This document shows, one piece after another, positions 42,952-47,066 of a stretch of DNA of 47,066 nucleotides. The notes under the pieces were generated by a model, which made no database searches, was not told the DNA's origin, and was given only the letters and a program-made list of their open reading frames with translations. The stretch lies in the NCBI GenBank assembly GCA_022787085.1, contig JALFVE010000006.1, positions 1-47,066 on the forward strand, read 5' to 3'. The stretch is from Oscillospiraceae bacterium. GTDB lineage: Bacteria > Bacillota > Clostridia > Oscillospirales > Ruminococcaceae. The translations under genes were made by a program, and so were the position numbers. Position 1 is the stretch's first letter. Each line of letters begins with the position of its first letter.

Positions 42952-43764
42952 TTGGATATTCTGGCTCATGTGAACGATGATGGAAGAAAACAGACTCTGG
43001 AAGAGCATCTTAACGGAGTGGCGGAACTGGCAAAGGGATTTGCCATATCAGAACTGAAAACGGCTGCAGAATATCTCGGACTTATTCACGATATCGGAAA
43101 ATGCCGTCCCAATTTCCAAAGAAGGCTTTCGGGGGATAATATCCGCTGCGAGCACGCCTGCTGCGGAGCACAGGAGATCATTTCAGGAAATAAGAAAAAC
43201 GCCTTGGCATATCTCCTTGCATACTGCGCAGCGGGGCATCATTCGGGACTTCAGAACGGCGGAGCAAAAAACGATCCCGAGGATGAAGGCACACTGCATT
43301 CCGCACTGAACAAGAAAGCGGGGGATTACCTTCCGCAAGGTGAGCGTTTCAGGGTGAGCCTGCCCGATCTGAACGGACTGGATAGGCTGATTTCCGAGGG
43401 TGCGGAGAATATGCCTGAAATATTGGAGCGGGCAGCATTTTTCACAAGATATCTGTTTTCCTGCCTGACAGACGCAGATTTTCTCGATACGGAAAATTTC
43501 TGCGATTCGAATACTGACAGGGAGATAAAAGGGGATTTCTCTGAGGCTCTCCGACTTGTTTCGGGAAAAATTCAAGGCTTTATTGCGGATACCGATGTGA
43601 AAAGGGCAAGAAAAAGCCTTCAGCAGCAGGCAATGGACGGCTGCGGCAGTGAAGGTGTACATATTCTCAATATGCCCACGGGAAGCGGCAAGTTATCACA
43701 ACTTCCTAATGTGTCTAAAATAGATGCAATGGCTCACAAAGTCCCTATTATAGCTGTTTCTTAA
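42952..43764 (+). pseudogene. cas3: Truncated Cas3 (HD nuclease plus start of helicase)
   Basis: Cas3 is the HD nuclease/helicase that degrades DNA in type I CRISPR interference. The HD nuclease domain is intact: AHVNDDGRKQTLEEHL (H19), LGLIHDIGKCRPNFQRRL (H46-D47, K50), HACCGAQEI and CAAGHHSGLQ, LTDADFLDTENF. The helicase begins normally up to its Walker A motif, NMPTGSGK, ending at K247 (nt 43692), and the next 23 residues (LSQLPNVSKIDAMAHKVPII..) are unrelated. About two thirds of a normal Cas3 (700-900 residues) is therefore missing, and no other cas gene or CRISPR array is nearby. TTG start with AGGAGG 10 nt upstream. The isolated HD part could still be expressed as a small nuclease. Subtype cannot be assigned safely; the AHV..DG..Q.L.EHL opening resembles I-C. 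Confidence 0.85.
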
Positions 43765-43805
43765 CACGAAATCAGTTGTGGAATTCATCGTGTAAAATTA
43801 GACAC
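43711..43805. repeat. 95-bp segment with 8-bp inverted ends
   Basis: GTGTCTAA (43711-43718) and TTAGACAC (43798-43805) are exact inverted repeats; the region also contains CACGAAATCAGTTGTGGAAT and CATCGTGTAAAATTAG. It lies 19 bp past the point where cas3 breaks off. It looks like the joined ends of a lost insertion sequence, or a small MITE; no target-site duplication is visible. Confidence 0.45.
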
Positions 43806-43833
43806 GTTTTATATGAATATAATATGAACAGGC

Positions 43834-43857
43834 AGAGGCATAGCAGTCTCTTTTTTT
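43834..43857 (+). terminator. Weak terminator before restriction locus
   Basis: AGAGGC and GTCTCT pair over 6 bp (one G-T) with a 6-nt loop, followed by seven T residues. Confidence 0.45.
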
Positions 43858-43882
43858 ATGGTTTCAATTATGTAGATAAATA

Positions 43883-43911
43883 TTGACATATATCGAAAAA
43901 TATTGTATAAT
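43883..43911 (+). promoter_or_regulatory. Consensus promoter of HsdM/HsdR chimera operon
   Basis: TTGACA (43883-43888), 17-bp spacer, TATAAT (43906-43911); both hexamers are perfect. Start near 43918, so the in-frame ATG at 43903 is not the true start. Confidence 0.85.
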
Positions 43912-43944
43912 AAAAATATCAAAAATATTATTGGAGGCACACTA

Positions 43945-45750
43945 ATGATAACTGGTAGTCTTAAAAACAAAATCAATTCAATTTGGCAGGATTTTTATAA
44001 TGAAAATATGGCACAGACATCTGAAATAGTAAATCAGCTTACAACCCTTATGTTTATAAAGATGCTTGATGATAAGCAGAATGCTGTAGAGGCCCAAGCG
44101 TCTATTATAGGTATTGAAGCCCCTCAGAGTGAGCTGACCTTTAAAAAGGGTAACTACAAGAATATTGAGGTTATCAATGGAACAGAACAGGTTAAGTTTG
44201 AAATTCCATACGAAGACCTCAGATGGAAAAACTTTAAGAATCTGAACGGCAAGGACTTGGCCGCAAGAATAAAGAATTACGTCATTCCTTTTATTAAAGA
44301 CCCAAATAACAAATCCGTAGGAAAGTTTGCAGACTATGCAAAGAAATATACTTTTGGCTTTGATGATAAAGAACGACTTCTTACATCTGTTGTGGACAAG
44401 CTTTCAGATGATGAAATGAATTTTACTAACACTGACCTTATGGGCGATGTTTATGAATATATGTGTGGTTCGGGAGTTTCTGGACAGTTCAGAACCCCAC
44501 GACACATTATTGATATGGCTGTAGAAATGATGAAGCCGCAGCTCGGTGAAAAAATCATTGACCCCGCAATGGGTACAGCTGGCTTCATTATTGAATCGGC
44601 AAAGTACATTCAGGAACATCAGAAAAATGAACTTCTTAATGTTGAAAACAAAAAGAAGTTTAATTCCGAAATGTTTTACGGCTGCGATAATGATTCAAAT
44701 ATGGCCAGAATCGGATATATGAACTGTATCCTTCACAATATAAAGAATCCTATTAATGACAAGGCTTTTTATACCGAGCTGAAGGATTCTTTGGTATCAG
44801 ATGTTGTATCTCTCAATAGAAACTATATCGGCGTTCAGAAGAATCTGAAATATGTTGAAAAATATTCTGACCCTGTAAATTGGGAACATTTCACTCAGCA
44901 GAATTTCCTTGATATTAAGAAGTATATTGCCCCTAATATATCGGGTGATATCGATATTGAATCCGCACGATTCTTTGACCTGCTTTGTTATAAGTATTCT
45001 GCAACGAAATTCAATAAAAATAATACCTTCGCAATGACTGCAAAGACCATATATACTTTGGCTTGCTACCTTCTAGATAACAAAATGCGCATTTCTGAAG
45101 TAGCCGCACACAAAGAAACATTGGAATATATCAAGTCCGATGATTTCCTCACCAAAACAACTGTAACCAATATGGACAACATTCGTCAGGAAATAAGACA
45201 GTTAATAAAATATATTGAAAAAGAAATCATTGAACCAATCATATCTGATTTTGACGATAAGATTATTTCAAATGAAGATGCAGATGACGATGATGTTGAT
45301 TTCTCTGTTACTGTAGACGATTTTAAATCCCTGGAGGAAAAGGTAATTTTCTATATTAAAACGCACCTTGATGACAAACTGGTATATCAGGTCAATAATC
45401 TTATAAAGCCAACAGATAATGCTATAAGCGCTTTCAAAGCAGAGGTTATCAAAACTGCCAAAAGCAATGACGAATATGAAGGACTCTTTGCCTCTGATGA
45501 TGAAATTGTGCCGTTTGTCAGAAAATCAATCGGCTTAAACCCTGATGCTGTTAATAAGTTTATTGATTTGCAGTCAGCAAAGGGCTTAAACGATAATCAG
45601 ATTAATTATACAAGGGAGCTTTTAAATTTTATTGCTAATAATGGTAAATTTGAAAGAGCTGACCTTCTTCGTGATGAGCTGAACTTTGGAGAGATTTTCG
45701 ATAATGTTTCAATTAATGCTCTTATTGAGGATATTAACAGTATCTTGTAA
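43945..45750 (+). CDS. Chimeric type I restriction protein: HsdM N-terminus fused to HsdR C-terminus
   Basis: A 601-residue protein from ATG 43945 (GGAGG 7 nt upstream). Residues 1-286 are the HsdM methyltransferase front: LKNKINSIWQDFYNENMA, the N-terminal helical domain, QFRTPRHIIDMAVEMMKP and SAM motif I DPAMGTAGFIIESAKYI (D206), ending at MFYGCDNDSNMARIGYMNCI and ELKDSLVSD. The next element of HsdM should be the catalytic NPPF/Y motif; it is absent. From about residue 287 the sequence is the C-terminal domain of HsdR: KYVEKYSDPVNWEHF, YIAPN, ESARFFDLLCYKYSATKF, RQEIRQLIKYIE, and PFVRKSIGLNPDAV with LNDNQINYTRELLNFIANNG. Methylation, ATPase/helicase and nuclease activity are thus all lacking. 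A gene-joining deletion spanning hsdM to hsdR, kept in frame, explains it; a functional regulator or decoy is possible. Codons are A/T-ending, unlike the window. Confidence 0.8.
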   Translation: MITGSLKNKINSIWQDFYNENMAQTSEIVNQLTTLMFIKMLDDKQNAVEAQASIIGIEAPQSELTFKKGNYKNIEVINGTEQVKFEIPYEDLRWKNFKNLNGKDLAARIKNYVIPFIKDPNNKSVGKFADYAKKYTFGFDDKERLLTSVVDKLSDDEMNFTNTDLMGDVYEYMCGSGVSGQFRTPRHIIDMAVEMMKPQLGEKIIDPAMGTAGFIIESAKYIQEHQKNELLNVENKKKFNSEMFYGCDNDSNMARIGYMNCILHNIKNPINDKAFYTELKDSLVSDVVSLNRNYIGVQKNLKYVEKYSDPVNWEHFTQQNFLDIKKYIAPNISGDIDIESARFFDLLCYKYSATKFNKNNTFAMTAKTIYTLACYLLDNKMRISEVAAHKETLEYIKSDDFLTKTTVTNMDNIRQEIRQLIKYIEKEIIEPIISDFDDKIISNEDADDDDVDFSVTVDDFKSLEEKVIFYIKTHLDDKLVYQVNNLIKPTDNAISAFKAEVIKTAKSNDEYEGLFASDDEIVPFVRKSIGLNPDAVNKFIDLQSAKGLNDNQINYTRELLNFIANNGKFERADLLRDELNFGEIFDNVSINALIEDINSIL

Positions 45751-45767
45751 AGAGAGGTAAATATTAA

Positions 45768-45968
45768 ATGGCAAGAGCTAAAAAAGATGGAGTAAATATC
45801 AACTACTATATTCGTAAAGATGTAAAAAATAAGCTTGATGCTTATTGTGAGGACGTAGGACAAACAGCTACAACTGCAATTGAAAGAATCCTTGAAAAGC
45901 ATCTCGATGAATACTTTACGCAAAAAGACACAAACGACAGCAAAACGCAGAATACTAATAATACCTGA
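45768..45968 (+). CDS. Small ribbon-helix-helix-like DNA-binding protein
   Basis: A 66-residue protein: VNINYYIRKDVKNKLDAYCEDVGQTATTAIERILEKHLDEYF. A short strand followed by two helices, the second starting at T-A-T-T-A-I-E, fits an Arc/CopG/MetJ-type ribbon-helix-helix dimer. A polar, Asn/Thr/Lys-rich tail follows. It is placed 17 bp after the chimeric restriction gene and 17 bp before the recombinase, with GAGAGGT upstream of the ATG. It may regulate the operon or act as an accessory to the recombinase. I do not recognise a named family member. Confidence 0.65.
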   Translation: MARAKKDGVNINYYIRKDVKNKLDAYCEDVGQTATTAIERILEKHLDEYFTQKDTNDSKTQNTNNT

Positions 45969-45985
45969 AGATAGGAGGTTATACT

Positions 45986-47066
45986 GTGCAGCGAATCACT
46001 GAATTTAAAACGGGTAAAAAATCCATTTTTAAAGTTGAAACTGTAATAGATGGTGCTGTTGTTGATTCGAAAATGATTAACGTTCAGATTGATACAGTAA
46101 CTGTAAAAAATAAAGAGTATAACCTCCTATATAATAGCTCCTACGAGCTGGTTGAAGATGCATATAACTTCCTAAATCATAACCAAAAAAGACTTTCAGC
46201 TAATTCAATAAAAGCTGAAATGTATGCTCTAAGATACTTATATGTATTTAGTGAAATTATTAATAAGCCAATATCAGAGTTTACAAGGATAGATTTTATA
46301 AAACTCAATTATTTTCTATCAGGAGTATCCGCAGATGGCTCTGAGGTTGAATATAATCTTTTAACTAAAAGGAATTCAGAGACAATCAATAGTTTCTTTT
46401 CAGTATATAGGGAACTATACAGATATTTAGATTTAACAAGCGCTCCTATATTGAATGAGCGCTCATTTGCTAAATACACCCCAGCAGGCAGAAGGAACAA
46501 GTCAGCTAATATAACAAATGTCGAGGTCCCAAAGTACATATCAGTGGAAGAATTTCAAAAGATTATAAGCTACATTATTGAAACTGTAAAAATTCAGGCG
46601 GATATAGAACAAAATAAAACAAAGCTACTTCCTAGTTCATTTTACAATAAATATACCAACTTGCTGTATAATGCGGTTTTTGATGAAAACGAAATAAAGT
46701 ATAATAGAGGCTATTATGGATTATTGTATATTGGAACTCAAACTGGCCTAAGAGCATCTGAGATTGCAATATTACGAGTTCAAGACCTTGAAATAATATC
46801 ATTTAGAGATAAATCAATAGGTGTCCTTCATTATCGTTCTACTAAAAGCGGAAATGGAAAAAATAATGTTTATGATGAAGGAAAAACAAATGCAAATAAT
46901 AAAGTTATTGCTGTGTATGAAATGTTAGCTTCATTATTTAAGGAAGAAAGAATTACACAAAAAGTTGATTTTTTAGTTCCCAGAGATATGAATGCTCAAT
47001 CAAACGGCAGAGACAAATCATTAAGAAGCAATATTTCATCTACGGCATTGGAAAACACTAATATTC
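45986..47066 (+). CDS. Tyrosine recombinase/phage-type integrase, 3' partial
   Basis: Starts at GTG 45986 with AGGAGG 7 nt upstream and stays open to the window edge (360 codons). An N-terminal arm-type region with DNA-binding helical stretches (AEMYALRYLYVFSEII, FTRIDFIKLNYFLSGVS) is followed by the catalytic domain: ISVEEFQKIISYIIE, then YGLLYIGTQTGLRASEIAILRVQDLE with the first catalytic arginine at R256, and the beta-strand YRSTKSGNGKN with the conserved lysine. The second Arg, His and the nucleophilic Tyr lie beyond the window. It likely mobilises the surrounding A+T-rich segment or switches an hsdS gene downstream, as recombinases in type I restriction loci do. Confidence 0.85.
   Translation, partial: MQRITEFKTGKKSIFKVETVIDGAVVDSKMINVQIDTVTVKNKEYNLLYNSSYELVEDAYNFLNHNQKRLSANSIKAEMYALRYLYVFSEIINKPISEFTRIDFIKLNYFLSGVSADGSEVEYNLLTKRNSETINSFFSVYRELYRYLDLTSAPILNERSFAKYTPAGRRNKSANITNVEVPKYISVEEFQKIISYIIETVKIQADIEQNKTKLLPSSFYNKYTNLLYNAVFDENEIKYNRGYYGLLYIGTQTGLRASEIAILRVQDLEIISFRDKSIGVLHYRSTKSGNGKNNVYDEGKTNANNKVIAVYEMLASLFKEERITQKVDFLVPRDMNAQSNGRDKSLRSNISSTALENTNI

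Follow-up and report, generated by a model that had tools for sequence, protein, structure and literature searches.

The window analysed here, a stretch of 47,066 nucleotides (nt) from the draft genome of an Oscillospiraceae bacterium (contig JALFVE010000006.1), holds an open reading frame (ORF) in which parts of two type I restriction-modification subunits are joined. In the assembled sequence this gene consists of the front of the methyltransferase subunit HsdM (residues 1 to ~270) followed by the last ~330 residues of the restriction subunit HsdR. We consider it likely that one in-frame deletion of ~3.7 kb in an hsdM-hsdS-hsdR operon left this gene as its scar, the operon having been cargo of a tyrosine-recombinase element inserted in cas3. 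The features discussed are collected in Table 1.

Composition of the chimeric gene

The ORF opens with an ATG and contains zero internal stops, no frameshift and no linker between its two parts. Pfam identified HsdM_N (PF12161) at residues 6–153 (E 1e-12) and a truncated N6_Mtase match, in which residues 162–311 align with profile positions 2–143 of 311. The S-adenosylmethionine (SAM) motif DPAMGTAGF lies at residue 206. Compared as protein, the HsdM part is 87% identical to that of locus L002, from a Lachnospiraceae metagenome-assembled genome, and 84–85% identical to those of L003, L012 and L013 (Ruminococcus flavefaciens XPD3002). The C-terminal part on its own matched EcoEI_R_C weakly (E 0.019, under the gathering score) and HsdR C-termini strongly, with 63% identity to residues 611–946 of the L013 protein. 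This suggests that the C-terminal assembly domain of HsdR is present in the chimera. A first-pass annotation of the window had recognised the HsdM front with its SAM motif, the missing NPPF and the HsdR tail in one frame, all of which the Pfam matches, the motif check and the HsdR matches confirmed. It had also named an alternative by which residues 287–601 would belong to an HsdM variant. An ordinary HsdM variant is ruled out, since residues ~272–601 match HsdR and not HsdM.

In most loci holding both parts, the protein matches extend to residue 268–270 for HsdM and begin at 270–274 for HsdR, and a few relatives' matches extend past the join, by at most ~17 residues. Searches of the bacterium's own assembly, a draft of 56 contigs that is 95% complete, gave a single match each for the HsdM (514 aa) and the HsdR (946 aa) of L013. 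Both lie at the chimera, covering residues 1–271 of the former and 611–946 of the latter. The ends of these two matches therefore place the join at about residues 269–272, so that the earlier estimate of residue ~287 (nt ~44,800–44,820) was ~17 residues too far downstream.

The tripeptide NPP of catalytic motif IV (NPPF/Y) was not found in the chimera. In all 16 related HsdMs checked, NPPF is preceded by DSLL and lies at residue 288–313, mostly 295; the HsdM part of the chimera stops ~25 residues short of that position. Likewise, no nuclease or helicase motor domain was matched by Pfam in the chimeric ORF, and in L013 HsdR the HSDR_N, ResIII and Helicase_C matches fall within residues 56–529, upstream of the retained segment. 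The absence of methylase catalysis, translocase and nuclease had already been noted in the first-pass annotation. Judging by its domain content, the product would neither methylate nor restrict, as it has no catalytic motif IV, specificity subunit, nuclease or motor.

Table 1. Coordinates of the chimeric gene, its parts and the neighbouring features in the window.
Feature	Position	Strand	Evidence
Left half of split cas3 (HD domain up to Walker A GSGK)	42952..43692	+	Best PADLOC match Cas3c
Left end of mobile element, imperfect inverted repeat of right end on C54	43693..43721	+	23/29 matches
Consensus sigma-A-type promoter TTGACA-17-TATAAT	43883..43911	+	12/12 match
HsdM/HsdR chimera, in frame, 601 aa	43945..45750	+	ORF reading, Pfam, homologue matches
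HsdM part, residues 1-269 (HsdM N-terminal domain and first half of methylase domain)	43945..44751	+	87% identity to L002 HsdM 1-269
Putative deletion join, about residues 269-272 (KNPI/NDKAF, slash marking the join)	44749..44760	+	Protein matches, alignment
HsdR C-terminal part, ~residues 272-601 (about HsdR 611-946 of 946 in L013)	44755..45747	+	63% identity to L013, 61% to L002
Small Arc/RepB-like protein, 66 aa	45768..45968	+	PF10723 E 9e-6; phrog_876 E 7e-5
Tyrosine recombinase, runs off contig end	45986..47066	+	phrog_1 integrase E 3e-8; PF00589 below cut-off

Intact relatives and the search for the junction

We compared 19 related loci, 15 from genome contigs and four from a viral collection. 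All 15 genome-contig loci match residues 1 to ~270 of the chimera (L016, whose record is broken, only to 205), and several of the nearest relatives are rumen-named records. The C-terminal part is also held by 14 of the 19 loci, in 13 of them on the same strand and 3.65–4.2 kb downstream of the hsdM piece; the records of the other five stop at most 2.4 kb from the hsdM match. In L009 (3271–8858), unlike the other 13 loci with both parts, the hsdR part is found upstream of hsdM and on the opposite strand. L013 encodes an intact HsdM of 514 aa, a Methylase_S protein of 388 aa and an HsdR of 946 aa in this order, and L002 has likewise ordered ORFs of 516, 376 and 958 aa, the 376-aa ORF not being family-typed. 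The chimera locus shares the order of these operons, with 84–87% identity in the HsdM part and 61–63% in the HsdR part. It differs in the absence of the 3' half of hsdM, the intervening hsdS and the 5' two thirds of hsdR, and what remains forms one ORF. Taking ~3.7 kb out of the hsdM-hsdS-hsdR order gives the chimera.

A joined HsdM-HsdR was seen in none of the 19 related loci. When the whole protein was searched against 60 other genomes of relatives, the matches were to one part or the other, and none spanned both; a second search, of the 19 congeners in this set, gave the same result. Among the matches listed for 397 other genomes of the phylum, some of them common to the set of 60 and with at most three candidates scored per genome, none had both parts in one place; two overran the join (G735, residues 100–330; G679, residues 263–600), neither covering both parts. 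A search with only the C-terminal part gave matches in 43 genomes out of 393 others of the order; most of the matching frames were ~1100 aa long, as HsdR frames are. These matches included a few short frames (192–534 aa), not all of which were rechecked with the N-terminal part. A query coverage of at least 80% was reached by none of the 395 plasmid and 53 phage records with a match, and a degenerate junction pattern gave no match in viral contigs. A phage origin was rejected, as no phage record covers 80% of the protein and the IMG/VR relatives L066–L069 keep the two pieces separate.

The first-pass annotation had offered two readings, an operon that lost its middle by deletion or a conserved fusion protein with a new role, and had predicted that a deletion scar would give matches to HsdM or HsdR separately. 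Such separate matches are the only outcome obtained. They favour the deletion and, within the sets searched, give no support to a conserved chimeric family. A literature search on HsdM-HsdR fusions and truncations, made mainly by listings, found no natural fusion of this kind. In engineered fusions the HsdR nuclease domain was placed on the N-terminus of HsdM, and these are reported as active in modification (PMC6158711). They too link HsdR and HsdM parts covalently, whereas here the HsdR tail stands behind half an HsdM.

The mobile element in cas3

The chimera lies just inside the left end of a mobile element, a context absent from the first-pass annotation. This tyrosine-recombinase element has two definable ends and splits a type I-C-like cas3. 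The right half of the gene (profile positions 195–603) was found at 249–1667 on another contig of the same assembly, C54. Behind it follow ORFs that are, by their order and size, candidates for cas5-cas8-cas7-cas4-cas1-cas2, and then a repeat-like array. The element comprises positions 43,693–47,066 of the window and 1–248 of C54, its middle being outside the assembled contigs. The match between its inverted ends was reached by one in 20,000 random placements. It is flanked by GGCAAG on the left and GGCAAA on the right, which differ by one base, and the G+C content is 0.33 in the window part of the element versus 0.49 in the cas3 part. An ORF tail at C54 3–122 only hints at a last gene of the element. 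Since the element splits cas3 in the Walker A motif, interference has presumably been lost, with the other cas genes remaining.

The element resembles GInt and Tn554, although membership is unproven because its middle is unassembled. GInts are described as having three recombinases, imperfect repeats at their flanks and, frequently, cargo of restriction-modification systems (PMC5385486). In common with GInt/Tn554, the element has a tyrosine recombinase, AT-rich ends, short flanks differing by one base and restriction cargo. Unlike in a published GInt, the cargo here precedes the recombinase instead of following a 5' gin operon. Furthermore, of the three-recombinase set with a GinD/TnpC-type protein, only one recombinase is visible, as the contig ends there. 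A single search of the own genome for a second recombinase of the element, run without a control, found nothing.

The promoter in front of the chimera is the only 12/12 site found in the stretch, where promoter-like sites number 17, against a shuffled mean of 16.9. GGAGG stands 7 nt before the ATG. The perfect promoter, good binding site and unbroken frame of the first-pass annotation are thus upheld. The chimera is probably expressed from this promoter, as a presumably inert or unstable protein. Promoter, chimera, the gene for the 66-aa protein and the recombinase gene are co-directional, with 17-nt gaps.

The recombinase is 29% identical to an integrase of Enterococcus faecium over 189 aligned columns; it had one marginal match in 393 other genomes of the order and was not found in viral contigs. 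Its best plasmid relative is on E. faecium plasmid pBN83-1 (L098, 3189–6302), at 29% identity over half the query. There a 217-aa Type ISP C-terminal specificity fragment is encoded upstream of the integrase gene, so that restriction remains are again found beside such a recombinase. A role of the integrase as an invertase in hsd phase variation was rejected, no related integrase having been found among the loci then compared.

Origin of the chimera

In the explanation we favour, the parent would have been a type I hsdM-hsdS-hsdR operon carried by the element in cas3, and one deletion of ~3.7 kb would have fused the hsdM front to the hsdR tail. The event may have been too recent for the frame to be lost, or an open frame may have been retained since it prevents polar effects on the closely spaced small gene and recombinase gene behind it. 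Trees of the two parts, which are not identical, both place the window next to L002/L003/L012 and L013, so that one parent operon is enough. The window deviates at one of 123 HsdM columns that are invariant in the other sequences (16 relatives kept; L016, L068 and L069 left out) and at four of 77 such HsdR columns (10 relatives kept; L066–L069 left out). As the relatives themselves range from 0 to 14 and from 0 to 9, respectively, there is no sign of decay. Furthermore, in both trees no near neighbour has a terminal branch as short as that of the window. This low divergence of both parts fits a recent event, but it fits equally a protein that has been kept. Synonymous sites were saturated in the analysis of nonsynonymous to synonymous substitution rates (dN/dS), which therefore did not separate a recent scar from a retained protein.

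Several observations weigh against a deletion scar. The frame is open over 601 codons behind a perfect promoter, and both parts evolve no faster than their counterparts in intact operons. The longest stretch common to both breakpoints is 7–8 nt in four intact relatives, as in shuffles, so that the deletion is not accounted for by a short repeat there, these relatives not being the parent. The comparison rests on operons of other species, and the search of the own genome with L013 HsdS, which gave no match, was run without a positive control. An AlphaFold2 model of the chimera was not used as evidence. Its mean predicted local distance difference test (pLDDT) score was 49.7, with almost all of residues 158–498 below 50, and its predicted template modelling (pTM) score was 0.30. 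In its alignment, A1, most of each of the nine HsdR rows was wrongly aligned with the HsdM part (223–237 letters, with 103–108 beyond), and the model is therefore silent on folding.

An assembly artefact, in which hsdM was wrongly joined to hsdR or strain variants were collapsed while the true operon is intact, is rather unlikely. The 56-contig state of the draft speaks for it, as does the contig end 1.3 kb downstream, inside the element with its unassembled middle. With an artefact, pieces of hsdM or hsdR would be expected elsewhere, whereas the L013 HsdM and HsdR searches of the own genome turned up neither an hsdM 3' nor an hsdR 5' remnant. The join is also clean and in frame, and the 7–8 nt shared by the breakpoints in the four intact relatives are too short to mislead an assembler. 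The window's own repeats are no test of misassembly, because one repeat copy alone would remain.

The conserved residues, open frame and perfect promoter could also be those of a decoy or anti-restriction protein, whose HsdM N-terminal and HsdR C-terminal parts would bind partners and poison complete type I complexes. The helical domain of HsdR has a proposed role in assembly (PMC5248579). This speculation is highly improbable, since no relative with the same junction and no conserved homologue was found in the sets searched, and the own genome yielded no other related hsdM or hsdR that could be poisoned. A methylase fold cut in half is, moreover, unlikely to be stable. The co-directional layout with its short gaps has a further possible meaning, that of a translated leader gene, the frame being kept solely to carry transcription and translation on to the small gene and the recombinase gene. 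We regard this as highly improbable, as a third of random deletions would preserve the frame in any case. A young decoy, by which a single deletion turned the element's own operon into a blocker of related type I assembly that aids entry into protected hosts, deserves very little credence.

As a probable deletion scar, the gene would illustrate the decay of restriction cargo within a mobile element, and the locus shows such an element splitting a host cas3. Its main value would be the caution that a deletion can leave behind a long open frame under a perfect promoter. Were the decoy speculation true instead, the gene would show how a single step can make an anti-restriction protein out of a restriction operon.
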